Shown piece by piece: positions 7,383 through 37,582 of a stretch of 64,000 bases of DNA. The first letter of the stretch is position 1. Every line of letters begins with the position of its first letter. The notes under the pieces were generated by a model, which searched no databases, was not told the origin of the DNA, and saw nothing but the letters and a program-made list of their open reading frames with translations. Position numbers and translations under genes: made by a program. Origin of the DNA: Umbilicaria muhlenbergii (Eukaryota; Ascomycota; Lecanoromycetes; Umbilicariales; Umbilicariaceae); contig KK106982.1 in NCBI GenBank assembly GCA_000611775.1, positions 1,240,001 to 1,304,000 of the forward strand. The letters are read 5' to 3'.

Positions 7383-7955
7383 ATGCTCGGAACAAGGGCT
7401 CTTCAGGCTCGGTCGGTATGGAAGGGTATGACGTATGGAGGACCAATTAATAGTACAACGGATACTAACCTACAGCATAGGACCACACATCGTGCCGTAA
7501 GCTGTTCTTCCGCATTCTCGATGTCGTCGCAACCGGCCATGTCCACCGCTTTCCCTTCGCCAGTTTGGCGTCTACCAGTGTCCTCATTCGGAGCACTCTT
7601 GCTAACATCAAGATTTCCTCCCCGCCCAGTCTCCCTATCGTGCGCCCCGTCCCCGGCCAACGAACACCGCCCATCAAAACCATGGCCCGCGCAGCGACTA
7701 TACTGCCAAATTTTGTGGGCTTGAAGTTCCAGGTACACAACGGAAAGGTCTACAATGATGTAACAATTACAGAAGAAATGGTGGGGCACAAGCTGGGGGA
7801 GTTCTCGCCGTGAGTCTTCCCATCCGTAAAACTGGGGTTGACGCCGAGAATGGCATGCCCAAGATGAGAAGGGTCGCAGAGAGCCGATCACTGACTTCAG
7901 TATTTGGGATAGGACGAGGAAGAAGTTTACATACAAGCTGAGCAAGAACAAGTAG
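7383..7955 (+). CDS. rsm19: Mitochondrial small-subunit ribosomal protein S19 (Rsm19)
   Basis: uS19 of the mitochondrial ribosome, at the head of the small subunit (family knowledge). Four exons: 7383-7425, 7481-7496, 7630-7809 and 7913-7955, giving 93 residues against about 91 in yeast. The spliced protein reads ARSVWKGPHIVPLPI, then [36 protein letters not shown] and [18 protein letters not shown], which matches the uS19 core throughout. Exon 2 is a 16-bp microexon (GPHIVP) bounded by a CATAG acceptor and a GTAAGC donor. The start ATG at 7383 lies in good context; an upstream in-frame ATG at 7293 would add 30 residues with no similarity. Divergent from mre11. Confidence 0.93.
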
Positions 7956-8173
7956 ATGGGCTGTTGAGATGGGTGCGTAGCTAGGGCGTTTGGGCATGGA
8001 GCACTGGAGTCTCCCTGGATCGATTATGGAAGCATTGGTTCTGAGACACCACGAATCCCAGAAACTGTACATGTATTCATTACCGCCCTTCTACATTGCT
8101 TTCTCTTCGTTATCCCATGGTCTACTTGTATTCATTGCAATGTCCACCGATCCACCACCCCGTACAAACCTAT

Positions 8174-28991: not shown

Positions 28992-29487
28992 CTAACCCTC
29001 GTGCTTCGTGCCCTCCTGCGCCTCGTGTTCCTCGCCATCCTCCTCTTTCTCCGCCTCGACTTCCGTCTCGACTTCCGCACCATCTCTAGCTCCTCTTCCG
29101 AACTTTTCTTCCTTCTCCATCTCAATGATCTTCACGACTATTAGTTACAACGTCCTCCTGTTGGATTGGGAAGTACATCCGAGCACCTACCTGCCGTAAA
29201 AGTTCTCTCCTTTTCTCACTTAGCCGGCGTATTCTCGGTCGCAAAGCCTCCAACTCCTCCCGGCTCGTATCATAGAAATACTCCGCGGTGGCTGACGGGA
29301 TGCGTATTACGGTTGCTGTTGCCCCTGCTGCGTTCGCGGAAGCGCTGGAAGGTCTCAGCAGGCGGTCGAGTGAGTGCAAATTTCCGTGGAGGCAGGTGTA
29401 TTCTTTGAGGAGTTTGTCTTCGTGTTTGAGGACTGTTTTGAGCTCCTTTCTGAGGTTGAGGAGAGTGGTGGTTGGCATGGTTGGCAT
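28992..29487 (-). CDS. Tandem coiled-coil family, copy 1 (full acidic tail)
   Basis: Unrecognised family. Exons 29487-29191 and 29129-28992, 61-bp intron in phase 0, 144 residues. Exon 1 holds a first helix (LLNLRKELKTVLKHEDKLL), a second (EYTCLHGNLHSLDRLLR), a variable loop and a third (ALRPRIRRLSEKRRELLRQ). Exon 2 starts IIEMEKEEKFGRGARDG and runs into a strongly acidic tail (EVETEVEAEKEEDGEEHEAQ). The acceptor GTGAAG was chosen because branch TAACTAAT lies just upstream and because exon 2 then starts with the I-I/V/T-E/D-M/W-E motif seen in all five copies. This is the only copy whose acidic tail is uninterrupted. No signal peptide or membrane segment; likely an intracellular helical protein. 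Confidence 0.7.
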
Positions 29488-29764
29488 GTTTGGTGATTGA
29501 TGGTTTAATTGATTCGAAGGCTGTCTAAGATGAGAAAGGTAAGGGTTATGAGGGATGTTTGTTAAGTTAGAGGTCGTGGTGGATGTTGTGTGTTATTCGT
29601 TGCTAATGAGCCACACAACACTGTCGCTGGCTCTCACAGGTGAGAGTAAGAGAGAGGTATAGCTTGCGCCCTTTTGAAACAGATGGGCTTTTAAAGCTCT
29701 GCTCCTAATACCCGCCGTTCCTTGCTTCCCAGGATCCTTTCCACCTGTCATCCTGTTCTTCCAT

Positions 29765-31357: not shown

Positions 31358-31889
31358 CTACTTGATCCTAGCTCGTTCCTCTGCTTTCTCCGCTATTTCC
31401 ATATCAATGATCTAGGAGTACATTAGTCACTGGACCTTAACATTATCTTCACCAGCACCAACCAACACCTACCTGCTGCAAAAGCTCCCTTCGTCTCTGC
31501 GTCAGCGGCGCCATCTTCTCCCTCAAATCGTCCATCTTCCTCACTTCCATATCTCGAAGGTTGGGCAAATACCACGTGTTGTAATGACCCCAAGGCAGCG
31601 GTGTAGACACCGTGGCTCTCAAACGACGGTCGATGTCGTGGAGGCCGGCATGGATGGTGTTGTATTCCGCAATCAGGATGTCTTGCTCCGAGAGAATCGT
31701 GGTGAGCTCTTCTCTGAGAGGGAGGATGCGGCGGGAGGATGCGGCGGGAGGATGCGGCGTTGGGTCTACCACGACTGTGCGGGATGAAGGGGCGGTGTGG
31801 GGATGAGGACGGCTTGAGAGGAAGCTGTTACGAGGACCATAGAGGATGATGTGGACTTCTTCTCGGAAGGAGTCCCATCTGGCTTCCAT
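31358..31889 (-). CDS. Tandem coiled-coil family, copy 4 (N-terminal repeat, tail cut by a stop)
   Basis: Exons 31889-31473 and 31411-31358, 61-bp intron in phase 0, 156 residues. It has a partly repeated first helix: WDSFREEVHIILYGP at the start and PLREELTTILSEQDILIAEY after a Pro/His/Ser-rich spacer, then IHAGLHDIDRRLR and MAPLTQRRRELLQQ at the exon end. Exon 2 reads IIDMEIAEKAEERARIK, then TAG. The same frame continues open past the TAG for 43 codons (to about 31226) with a very acidic sequence (EGIEEDDDEEDEEDEG), as expected for the family tail. The ATG at 31889 has context CACCATGG; another at 31916 would add nine residues. A TATA-like ATAAATA lies at about 31956-31962. Confidence 0.65.
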
Positions 31890-32126
31890 GGTGAGGGGTG
31901 GTGATGGACTTATCATGAGTGTGGGGGATGGAAGGATTTTGTGTTTGGTGAGGAGTATTTATGCTGTGGGATGAACATTCAGGTTGAAGGTCGTTCACTA
32001 CATAACACTTATGTGCTTCTGGTTTTCACTCTGCTACATTACGGCTGCTCCTTCTTCTCATCGATCTCCAGCTCTTCTTCACCTTCATCGACTTCCGCCT
32101 CCTCCTCCAGCACCCCTGCATCCTCC

Positions 32127-32563
32127 TCAACTTCCCCCCTTAACCTCTTCCTTCCTTCTCTGCTTCTGCCGTTCCTCCGCTTTCTCCGCAATCTCCCATT
32201 CAATAATCTGCAATACATTAGTCCTCCCATCAGCACTCTCTCTCCACCAAAACTCCTTCTCACCTCTTTCAAAAGCTCTCTTCTCCTCTTCGTCAGCGGC
32301 GTCATCATCTCCTTCAAGAACTCCAGCATCCTCGTTTGCTTCTCTCGAAATTCCAGCCAGGTAGGGCCATGAAAGATGGTCGGATCAATCCGCAGTAGAC
32401 GGTCTATCCGGTGGATACCCTTGTGGAAGATGTCGTACTCGTTAATGAGATCGTCTTGCTCGGAGAGGATGGTGGCGAGTTCTTCGCGGAGGGTGGAGAG
32501 GGTTGTGGTGGAGCTGGAGCTGGAGCTGGAGCTGGTTGTACTGGTGGCGGACATGGTGGTCAT
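32127..32563 (-). CDS. Tandem coiled-coil family, copy 5 (tail shifted out of frame)
   Basis: Exons 32563-32264 and 32207-32127, 56-bp intron in phase 0, 126 residues. The N-terminus is a Ser/Thr run coded partly by a GGAGCT repeat. Then come TLREELATILSEQDDLINEY, HKGIHRIDRLLR, a loop, and MTPLTKRRRELLKE at the exon end. Exon 2 reads IIEWEIAEKAEERQKQRRKE and stops at 32127. The next frame, reached across a G6 run at 32134-32139, is open to 32039 and encodes a clearly acidic tail (VLEEEAEVDEGEEELEIDE). A TATA box (TATAAAATAGG, about 32613-32623, minus strand) lies some 50 bp upstream of the start and supports this 5' end. Confidence 0.65.
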
Positions 32564-33107
32564 GGTGGCCGTGGTGATTGTGGTTGCTGCTCTGTGTGAT
32601 GGAGACGTCAATCCTATTTTATATCCATGAGATGATGTGTTAAAGACAGAGTATAGGCCGCTTATTCACATGCCCAAGTCCATCGCACGCTTCTTGTTAT
32701 CATCTGGCCCAACACTCCCACATCCATTCACCTCCCTCCCTGCATCCCTCCCGCTCGCTACCCCTAACCCCCTATCTCCTTACCTTCATCGTCTGCCGCC
32801 TTTCCTCGTCTCCCTCTCTACACCAACACCACAAACACCAGCACCTCCTCCTCATCCTCGCCCTTCATGCTCATCCCCACCACCTCCTCCTCGTCCAATT
32901 CAACACCCCAGGCCCACCCCCACCCCCGCTCACACCGCCGGCCAAAACCTCAGAAACAACTTCACCCGCCCCTCACGCACACTGAACAAGAAGATGACCC
33001 CCTAAGTCACTGCCTCCTCCTCAGATCTCCACCCACTCACCCCCCATCTCTATCCCATGAAAAATCAGCGCTCCTTCCATCCTATCTCTACAAAGCACAA
33101 AAATAAA
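32564..33107. other. Intergenic region, C-rich on the + strand
   Basis: The stretch 32700-33000 is Pro-coding low complexity on the plus strand. No family copy could be traced in it. It includes the upstream region of copy 5. Confidence 0.4.
32613..32623 (-). promoter_or_regulatory. TATA box of coiled-coil copy 5
   Basis: TATAAAATAGG on the minus strand, about 50 bp before the chosen ATG. The spacing fits transcription start some 25-30 bp downstream. Called from sequence only. Confidence 0.5.
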
Positions 33108-33263
33108 TGCCCACAGACAGAGTCGAACTGGCGACCTCGTCATTTCGGGTCCTCACTCTTCGCAAGGTTACTAGCTGGAACAGAATTAGTATACTGGAAT
33201 TTTTCAACTTTGGGTGAGGTTATAGAACATACTGACGCGCTCTACCAACTGAGCTATGTGGGC
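33108..33263 (-). tRNA. tRNA-Thr(AGT), interrupted by two segments; possibly a pseudogene
   Basis: Acceptor stem GCCCACA (33263-33257) pairs perfectly with TGTGGGC near 33109-33115. TA, D-stem GCTC/GAGC with loop AGTTGGTA, anticodon stem CGTCA/TGACG, variable AGGTC, T-loop TTCGACT and discriminator A follow. The loop CTAGTAA, anticodon AGT at 33172-33170, is the standard threonine loop. It is split: 58 bp (33232-33175) sit between the stem and position 32, and 25 bp (33168-33144) sit at the usual intron site after position 37. The 58-bp piece starts GTATGT, has TACTAAT and ends CAG. The T-stem has one mismatch (GCCAG against CTGTC), so a dead copy is possible. The T-rich run after the gene fits a Pol III terminator. 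Confidence 0.65.
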
Positions 33264-34811: not shown

Positions 34812-37582
34812 TCACATCATGCATCCGCCCTTCCAACTCGTCATCAGTTCGCTCGCACCTAACCTAACCCGTCTCTTCTCACCACCAATCATCAGATTCC
34901 ATCCAAAGCTCTCCACCATCCACTCGTACCACACTTTTCGGTCGTCCGTTTGGCGATAGATCGTCACGTCGAGTTCGGAGTGGTCGGGGATGTAGAGCGG
35001 TGTCTGCTTTCCATTAGTATGAAAGTGAATTAACTGGCATGTGGACGGGCAGGTGGCTTACTTTAAGCGGGAAGAATATCGGGAACCAACTAATCATGCC
35101 CGGACTTTTCTGGTCCATAGTAACCGGATTCGTACTCAGCTCCACCCCTGGATACAACACCGTCTCGAAATACCCTGCCAATCCATGGCAGACACCTCTA
35201 TCTCTCGTACGGAAAGTGAGGCGCGCATGCCGTTCATTATGCCTGTTACTTATCGGAAAATCCGGGGGTGACAGACTAGGCGCGTGTGCAAAACCCCAGG
35301 CTTTATGCACGTTAGGCGTGGTTGTTGTAGGTGGAGTTACCGTCGAGGGAGCGTGCGTGTTCAACGGAAAATCCATGGTACTTGCACTATCCCCGGGGTC
35401 TTTGGGAGGAGGTGTAGGTCCCGAGAGATTCGTCGACAGATAGTCGATTGCATGTAACATAACTACATACGGGGTCTCACTCGCGGTCGGATCGCTATGA
35501 CCGCGAGCCGCGATATCTGCGTGCAGTTTTGGTGCCGAGATGGGCGTCAAGTGCGCAGTGTAGGATGCCGGAATCGAGATACCGTGCTCGGGGTTCAGGA
35601 GGTGCGTTATGCCATCCAGACATTCGGGCGAAAGCTCATTATCGGCGAAAGAGCCGAGGAGCTCAGATACTAGCATGTCAATGGGGGTGTGCCCGGGTTG
35701 CGGAACGTAGGGTGAGGGCGCATCTGCAGAGGACGTATAGGAATGGAGAGATGGTGAAGGTCTTACGTCCTGCCGCCATGGACCTTTCCAGGCGCGCATG
35801 TCTGACTTTACGACGGTTACGCGGTTCTGCCAGTCTTCTTCATTGTGCCGTTGCAGCAGGACATAGGCATTGGGGTTCTTCTCAACGGCCCAGAGTTCGA
35901 TTTCAACGCCTACGGCCTCACTGGCTCGTAGTGCGCGCGTGACGAGCGGCCCGCGGCCGGCTCCGACCACAGCGACAACTACACGGCCGTCAGGGCTAGA
36001 TGTTGGTTTTTCTTGCTCGGCCCAGTCGCTGAGCGCTCTGGCTATGGCTCGCTCGTACCAGTCGTATTTGATTGGGTCTTTCTCGAAAACTTCATACGTG
36101 ATGCTTTCTAGATTGTCGGTTAGGGGCTGTAGAGGCGCTTGAAGATAGTCCTGGTAGCCGGCGCCTAGTCGATCGAGGCTTGTCCGTGAAGGCTGCTTTC
36201 GCTGTAGATTTCGAATATAGCTTAGATGAGGTGTAGAATCCTTGATCTTCCTGCTGCCCGATTGCTGCTGCTGATGAGAAGCCTCGGCTGGTGTAGGTGA
36301 TTGAGTAGCGTCAGCTGTCGTACTGGGACTAAGGAAACCATCGGCCATGGGTATTCTATCATCTGAGTTGTCCAGGCCAGGGATCGGTCCAACATCGCAT
36401 AGCAGAATCCACGGCGGATTTCGAATACGCATATACATGCTGATCAATGTCTGGTGAGCCTTGGAGAGTACTGGATAGCCTTTTGGGTTGCGAAGGAAAG
36501 AATGCGCGGTCAGAGAAAGAAGACGTAACGGTTCCGAGTGCCATCGAGACACGATCGGGAATGCTGGAAGATGTCTTGGCAGTGATAACCCTTTTGCGAA
36601 TGAAGTTAGCCATTTACTCGCCTGGCGCTCTGGTGTTCAGGTAGGAAATACGAAAGGATAGAGAGTACCTCAAGATCCTTCCTCGCGAACAACAAAGACG
36701 CCTCTTAGCGGATACGATGCCACACACAGTATGAAATTCGAAAGCAGATTTCACAAAGAGCACGATATACGGAACGAAAACTCTTGTCTGATTTCTTACC
36801 TACGAAAAGCCTAGCATTATATTTACATACAGTCCTGATTAGATTCCACGCATCCCAGGTTCCGAATATATCTGCTTTCCTTGGTCTGTCTTCATATGTC
36901 TCTCCCAAGTATTCCTCTCTCGCAAATGGAACCAGGCTACCCATTTCATCGTCATTGTCTGTATCCGGATGATCTATGATAGGCAGCATGATATGTATCT
37001 GCAGGTAGTTGCCAACTGCTAGAGCCTCCTGGATAGCTCGAGCGTACTGCGTTAGTCCTCCGCCATGTAAACTTTTATGGTGTAGCTTCGGTCCAGGAAC
37101 AATGACATTGCCAATTCCGCAAAAGGCTGCGTATGCTATCTCCAAATCCAAGACCTGACGAGAGATGTTGTAGATGAGAGGATCAGGTGAGCATAGATCG
37201 ATCCATGGACTGGCAACAGCAAGCAACTGTGATATAACATCACCCGGAGTTAAGGGTGTGTCTACTGGGGACAAGGCAGGTATGACAGGGGTTGGAATTT
37301 GTCGCCCAGACCGATTTGCGTCCTCGGAACCCAGCTCAGATAGATGGTTTGACAATAGCGCAAGCACACGTGAATGGAAATGCGGGGTGGTAATTGGAGT
37401 TGTGAGCATATCATACTGGAAATATAGTCAGCATCGGTCTCAAAATGGAGGGGCTCAATACGCACATTGCAATCCTGCGCCTGGCGCAAGACCTGTTCTG
37501 TAACGGGGAGCGGCCGTCTGCTCTCATGCTGACCAACATAGAAAGTGGGGATATAATCATCGACCGATGTCGGGGGCTCCAT
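34812..37582 (-). CDS. prmt5: Protein arginine methyltransferase 5 (PRMT5 / Skb1 / Hsl7)
   Basis: Makes symmetric dimethylarginine on Sm proteins and histones; in fungi also a cell-cycle regulator (family knowledge). Exons 37582-37466, 37415-36800, 36590-35062 and 35003-34812 give 817 residues. Seen: N-terminal TIM-barrel (YDMLTTPITTPHFHSRVL, then HGGGLTQYARAIQEAL, LPAFPIVSRWHSEPLR), AdoMet-binding VVGAGRGPLVTRAL with ELWAVEKNPNAYVLL, the double-E loop SELLGSFADNELSPECLDG, and the C-terminal beta barrel (NPVTMDQKSPGMISWFPIFF). There are Pro/Ser-rich inserts in the middle and in the barrel. The 5' end could extend: a TTTCAG acceptor lies just upstream of the chosen ATG and the frame is open (EEDDLSGALAKLFSVMEPP), so a small upstream exon is possible. 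Divergent from prp43. Confidence 0.93.

Follow-up and report, generated by a model that had tools for sequence, protein, structure and literature searches.

A threonine tRNA gene of Umbilicaria muhlenbergii interrupted twice, once at position 31/32 by an insert with spliceosomal-type signals

Introduction

Can a tRNA gene carry an intron of the mRNA type next to an ordinary tRNA intron, and still give rise to a working tRNA? This question is raised by a single locus in a stretch of 64,000 nucleotides from the genome of Umbilicaria muhlenbergii (here, the window), in which the anticodon arm of a threonine tRNA is interrupted at two places. The original prediction, which drew attention to the locus, set it against the statement that all known eukaryotic nuclear tRNA introns lie after position 37. 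That statement is too strong, as exceptions are described for the red alga Cyanidioschyzon merolae and for nucleomorphs (PMC4090602, excerpted text). For a fungal tRNA, spliceosomal signals at 31/32 are unusual, and no spliceosomal intron in a tRNA gene appeared among the matches listed in the open-licence literature.

Anatomy of the Interrupted Gene

The minus strand holds a complete nuclear tRNA gene at 33263..33108, which matches Rfam model RF00005 from end to end (model positions 1-71 of 71, 43 bits), the sole Rfam match above gathering score in the 64-kb window. The coordinates first proposed, 33108-33263, are correct, and the strand, which had not been given, is minus. In the RF00005 alignment 90 nt separate the two strands of the anticodon stem and consist, in this order, of a 58-nt piece, CTAGTA, a 25-nt piece at 37/38 and A38 (Table 1). 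The anatomy, the splice signals, the intact tRNA exons and the T run past the gene can be read directly from the window.

Table 1. Features of the interrupted tRNA-Thr gene, in window coordinates
Feature	Position	Strand	Basis
Internal promoter A box TAGCTCAGTTGG (presumed)	33245..33256	-	sequence located
tRNA 5' exon, positions 1-31: acceptor 5' strand, D arm, anticodon stem 5' strand CGTCA	33233..33263	-	Rfam alignment, ARAGORN cloverleaf
58-nt insert at 31/32 with spliceosomal-type signals GTATGT ... TACTAAT ... CAG	33175..33232	-	signal pattern, scoring
5' splice-site-like GTATGT, immediately 3' of the anticodon stem	33227..33232	-	sequence pattern
Branch-site-like TACTAAT	33185..33191	-	sequence pattern
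3' splice-site-like CAG, first AG past the branch site, ending 10 nt after TACTAAT	33175..33177	-	sequence pattern
Middle exon CTAGTA, positions 32-37, anticodon AGT (Thr)	33169..33174	-	ARAGORN
25-nt ordinary tRNA intron at 37/38	33144..33168	-	ARAGORN, pairing
tRNA 3' exon, positions 38-73: anticodon stem 3' strand, variable loop, T arm, acceptor 3' strand, A73	33108..33143	-	Rfam, ARAGORN
T arm with lone stem mismatch C50-U64 (33131, 33117)	33117..33131	-	pair check
Internal promoter B box AGTTCGACTCT (presumed)	33119..33129	-	sequence located
Pol III-type terminator TTTATTTTT, beginning at the base next to the gene 3' end	33099..33107	-	T5 run

ARAGORN finds no tRNA in the window and, with introns allowed, calls the tRNA sequence Tyr(ata). 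The Tyr call, made on the full sequence, places an 83-nt intron at 35-36. Once the 58 nt are taken out, ARAGORN calls Thr(AGT) and puts a 25-nt intron at 37-38; removal of both pieces leaves a 73-nt cloverleaf with the loop CU-AGU-AA, that is, Thr(AGT). Taking out the 58 nt in silico thus restores a regular Thr(AGT) precursor. All the parts that had been described are borne out: the arms of a tRNA-Thr(AGT), by the match to model positions 1-71 and by the ARAGORN call once both pieces are out; the 58 nt between the anticodon stem and position 32 (33232..33175), which start with GTATGT, contain TACTAAT and end in CAG 10 nt further on; and the additional 25 nt at the ordinary intron site 37/38 (33168..33144, ARAGORN).

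The exons are well preserved: every one of the 18 conserved positions tested (18 of 18) is intact, as are all but one of the 21 stem pairs. The T-stem mismatch that had been pointed out is C50-U64, the single broken pair, and it favours the main rival of an active gene: a dead or dying tRNA copy with a recent 58-nt intron-like insert, the cell being supplied by other Thr(AGT) genes. In eukaryotes, when one of many synonymous tRNA genes carries a short insertion, it is supposed to be a pseudogene (PMC4090602, excerpted text). Against a dead copy speak the conserved positions and pairs just given, the T run at the right place, and the position of the splice signals precisely at the edge of the stem, for which decay offers no explanation. 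We regard a dead copy as possible but doubtful.

Spliceosomal Signals in the 58-nt Insert

A search of the 64,000 bases for the strict pattern GTATGT-N10-40-TACTAAY-N4-14-YAG gives a single site (reported in duplicate because of two AG ends), against an expectation of 0.01. This place starts exactly at the border between stem and loop, at the first base 3' of the anticodon stem. A looser joint criterion, in which a 5' splice site at the first base is combined with a branch site, a YAG and a Y-U-NNN-R loop, was found in 47 of 200,000 dinucleotide-shuffled versions of the 90 nt (in which the first base always stays G), in 3 of 200,000 simple shuffles and in 3 of the 127,820 real 90-mers of the window, one of these three being the tRNA itself.

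The insert was also scored with a model built from 17 mRNA introns of the window. Its combined signal score is 17.3 bits, a value that 20,000 shuffles preserving its composition never reached; leave-one-out scores of the 17 introns range from 10.1 to 24.6 bits, and 14 of the 17 lie above the insert. The length of 58 nt also falls among those of the local introns (39-87 nt). Spliceosomal signals alone are no proof of splicing, because, of 24,442 GT-AG segments between 40 and 90 nt long, 73 score at least as high, genuine introns and variants of these among the 73.

The 17 introns were picked by hand, by reading frame and signals, from 20 printed stretches, of which four were left out (first Mre11, TBF, She4 and the Prp43 end); an automatic intron finder had given 14 candidates, several of them overlapping, and had missed the introns of most genes. 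The least certain members are those of PRMT5 (GTACTC, 39 nt) and TFB4. The set leans towards the consensus, because some stretches came from motif matches and the branch site of each intron was taken to be its best CTRAY-like match. For the same reason the branch sites ending in CTRAC in 14 of the 17 introns are partly a product of construction; GTATGT starts one of the 17, and TACTAAT occurs in none. The signals of the insert are good and well placed, yet they are not quite those of the neighbouring introns. The claim that they are exactly those of the protein-gene introns in the window was accordingly overstated: the score does lie within the local range, whereas TACTAAT (0 of 17) and GTATGT (1 of 17) are not the local habit.

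Two further ideas about the insert found no support. Taken as a Pol III adaptation of the insert, the lack of a T run is uninformative, because 16 of the 17 local mRNA introns likewise have no run of four T. Introner-like elements, which are present in many near-identical genomic copies, are a source of new fungal spliceosomal introns; the insert differs from them in having no second copy within the 64-kb window.

Intron Borders and Folding

Non-canonical tRNA introns of Cyanidioschyzon and of nucleomorphs exist, some with confirmed excision (PMC4090602, excerpted text), and this precedent would allow a tRNA endonuclease of relaxed specificity to remove the 58 nt, the spliceosomal signals then being a matter of chance. 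A bulge-helix-bulge was looked for by pairing at the borders of the 58-nt piece and does not form: one of five pairs is present in the outer helix, two of four in the central helix and three of four in the inner helix. Together with signals that have 0.01 expected occurrences in the window, this makes relaxed endonuclease cleavage quite improbable, and removal of the 58 nt by the endonuclease was rejected for want of the bulge-helix-bulge.

At the borders of the 25-nt piece, the outer helix has five of five pairs, the inner three of four and the central two of four, including C32-G(-3). The central count is the same as at the 58-nt site, and the five outer pairs are the anticodon stem itself, common to a reading with an 83-nt intron. 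The 25-nt piece has the features of an ordinary tRNA intron: it lies at 37/38, and C32 can pair with intron base -3 (G).

The original prediction had named, as one model that could overturn it, 88 bp forming one ordinary intron in a tRNA with a different anticodon. The readings of this kind have a single ordinary 83-nt tRNA intron and another anticodon, either His(AUG) at 37/38 or Tyr(AUA). The length is inside the range of 6-133 nt for eukaryotic tRNA introns (PMC4090602, excerpted text), and ARAGORN folds the unreduced sequence in the Tyr form. The His form folds too: its cloverleaf has -27.8 kcal/mol, 1.1 kcal/mol better than the -26.7 kcal/mol of the Thr form (0.9 above its own minimum), and the energy model gives no preference for Thr over His. 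Set against this, position 32 would be G in a single-intron tRNA, and the His reading would have U37, a base 32 unable to pair with intron base -3, and none of the four central-helix pairs. In eukaryotes, moreover, tRNA-Tyr calls for C1-G72 and tRNA-His for G34 (table in PMC9976931), where the gene has G1-C72 and A34. Despite the better energy of the His form, both single-intron readings were rejected on loop bases, pairing and identity elements, and we hold them to be extremely improbable; Thr(AGT) with two inserts stands. Only the reading with two introns gives a legal loop Y32 U33 AGU A37 together with the pair between C32 and the G at intron position -3.

The predicted folds bear on the two-intron reading in both directions. 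With the 58 nt out, the enforced cloverleaf lies 0.9 kcal/mol above the minimum, compared with 4.9 kcal/mol with the 58 nt in. The minimum-energy fold of the free precursor is not a cloverleaf, and in it the region of the 5' splice site pairs with sequence near the branch site. The T-stem mismatch, the fact that TACTAAT is not the local favourite and this precursor fold all stand against two introns.

Transcription Signals and Threonine Identity

The sequences TAGCTCAGTTGG and AGTTCGACTCT are taken by us to be the A box and the B box, by comparison with the consensus. Their starts are 127 nt apart, or 44 nt with both inserts out. T runs end Pol III transcription; the T5 lies at most 9 nt past the tRNA gene, and inside the gene there are no runs of four T. 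As background, 604 of 127,970 window positions (0.5%) have a T5 within 15 nt.

A Thr(AGT) tRNA would presumably decode ACU and ACC, which make up 213 of the 412 Thr codons counted in ten long ORFs. The identity elements of eukaryotic tRNA-Thr are given as G1-C72, U3-A70, G5-C68, G35, U36 and U73 in the eukaryote row of PMC9976931, the text of which, in the excerpt, names A73 for yeast tRNA-Thr. Compared with that row, G1-C72, G35 and U36 are present here, U3-A70 and G5-C68 are absent, and base 73 is A.

Genomic Surroundings and Uninterrupted Thr(AGT) tRNAs

The genes of the window are split by short GT-AG introns. Ten ORFs were searched against Pfam, which identified a tRNA methyltransferase, an actin-family protein and a DEAH-type helicase, along with PRMT5 and a GDE1-type phosphodiesterase, each of these two in two pieces. 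Among solved structures, the helicase has its best relatives in chains named PRP43, the first of which we take to come from a filamentous fungus. The window has the look of a fungal chromosome, and from its gene content we judge the host to be Pezizomycotina-like. The tRNA gene sits between the PRMT5 gene and three small ORFs (29122-29592, 31449-31958 and 32039-32665, minus strand), paralogues with 30-51% identity (E 3.5e-10 to 4.2e-21) that form a local family adjoining the tRNA and have no Pfam match at E 0.001. A weak Rfam match to ar14 at 35331-35431 (minus strand; 21.4 bits against a gathering score of 58.8, E 0.64) is most likely due to chance. A scan for bacterial promoters, not applicable here, found nothing.

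The locus is single, which would suit an error of sequencing or assembly, or a spliced Pol II transcript that just happens to cross a tRNA relic. The absence of a further copy of the insert from the window and the intact tRNA ends with the T run directly past them argue against both, and we give this explanation scarcely any credence.

Relatives were sought in several collections. Two protein scans with parts of the neighbouring genes gave no relative (no pattern matches in one; 14 stretches in the other, none of them a relative), a 281-base query had no match among plasmids and phages, and an intron pattern behind the D arm had none among viral contigs. Two tRNA-pattern scans of viral contigs yielded one phage-like contig (L001) and nothing, respectively. 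This contig carries a Thr(AGT) tRNA at 7902-7974 that has no insert and an anticodon arm letter-for-letter identical to that of the spliced fungal tRNA; it also carries a GOLLD RNA and, judged by eye, a ligase-like ORF. One pattern scan of genome contigs returned 27 records, all titled as bacteria, with no fungal contamination.

ARAGORN called 24 of these 28 sequences (L001 included) Thr(AGT) and one Asn(att), and left three uncalled. The loop CTAGTAA is carried by 24 of the 28 matches, called Thr(AGT), a frequency that is partly by construction, because this loop was nearly fixed by the viral pattern and was one of several loops in the genome pattern. The bacterial share consists of 23 records (L003-L007, L009-L017, L019-L025, L027-L028) of A34 Thr tRNAs (AGT), by title mostly from Lactobacillales and three from Mollicutes; an A34 Thr anticodon is unusual for bacteria. 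The uninterrupted bacterial and phage-like tRNAs indicate that CTAGTAA is a proper Thr loop, and are silent on the history of the interrupted gene.

Proposed Maturation by Two Splicing Machineries

The locus is best read as a nuclear Pol III tRNA gene for Thr(AGT) with two introns, the spliceosome removing the 58 nt and the tRNA endonuclease then removing the 25 nt, a reading towards which the balance of probability tips. That the product is a working tRNA matured by two unrelated machines in a fixed order, with the spliceosome acting at 31/32 and only then the tRNA endonuclease, has about an even chance. Here we infer transcription, spliceosomal splicing, the order of the steps and function.

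Pol III would make the precursor of the interrupted tRNA-Thr, and the spliceosome would take out the 58 nt in the nucleus. This removal may close the anticodon stem-loop, upon which the tRNA splicing endonuclease and ligase would remove the 25-nt intron at 37/38. The tRNA endonuclease is believed to set its cuts by distance from the tRNA body (PMC4090602, excerpted text). For that reason, and because a premature cut would destroy the 5' splice site, the spliceosome would have to act first; in the unspliced precursor, the endonuclease cut behind "position 37" would separate the sixth from the seventh base of the 58-nt insert. In Saccharomyces cerevisiae the tRNA endonuclease resides on the mitochondrial surface (PMC4090602, excerpted text), and if the enzyme is placed alike in the host fungus, the order of splicing would therefore be enforced in space as well.

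Comparison with Known Systems

The closest likeness is to U6 of Schizosaccharomyces pombe, which is made by Pol III and loses an mRNA-type intron to the spliceosome (PMC8917221, excerpted text). Like U6, the tRNA-Thr gene would be a Pol III small-RNA gene with an mRNA-type intron; spliceosomal removal is seen for U6, whereas for the tRNA-Thr it is presumed. The host molecule also differs, being a spliceosomal RNA in S. pombe and here a tRNA that carries an ordinary tRNA intron in addition.

Lichen fungi have spliceosomal introns in their rRNA genes, and yeast removes a spliceosomal intron from a Pol I transcript (PMC8527467, excerpted text); a first report of spliceosomal introns in ribosomal genes is cited in the excerpted text of PMC11889510. 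These introns of ascomycete nuclear rDNA resemble the present case as mRNA-type introns in a non-coding gene outside the Pol II class (PMC8527467, PMC11889510), and differ from it in belonging to Pol I, rRNA and repeated rDNA, where here a tRNA and presumably Pol III are concerned.

Among tRNA introns proper, C. merolae and the nucleomorphs share the position away from 37/38, and a nucleomorph offers several introns in one tRNA gene (PMC4090602, excerpted text). By contrast, the C. merolae introns are tied to a bulge-helix-bulge and the splicing endonuclease (PMC4090602, excerpted text), and the 58-nt site is without such a motif. The 25-nt piece fits the ordinary eukaryotic intron at 37/38 in position, length and the pairing of C32 with the G at -3, and the 58-nt piece does not.

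Implications

If the two-intron reading is true, the gene would hold the first spliceosomal intron in a tRNA gene, as far as the open-licence literature among the matches listed shows. Genes of this kind could be missed or miscalled by tRNA finders, as happened with ARAGORN, which found none in the window and then called Tyr(ata). The case would also show that tRNA genes are open to intron gain, and would offer a natural example of structure dictating which of two splicing pathways acts first. For the fungus itself, the supply of one tRNA would depend on the activity of the spliceosome, the reach of which would thereby extend to one of the most abundant classes of Pol III products.
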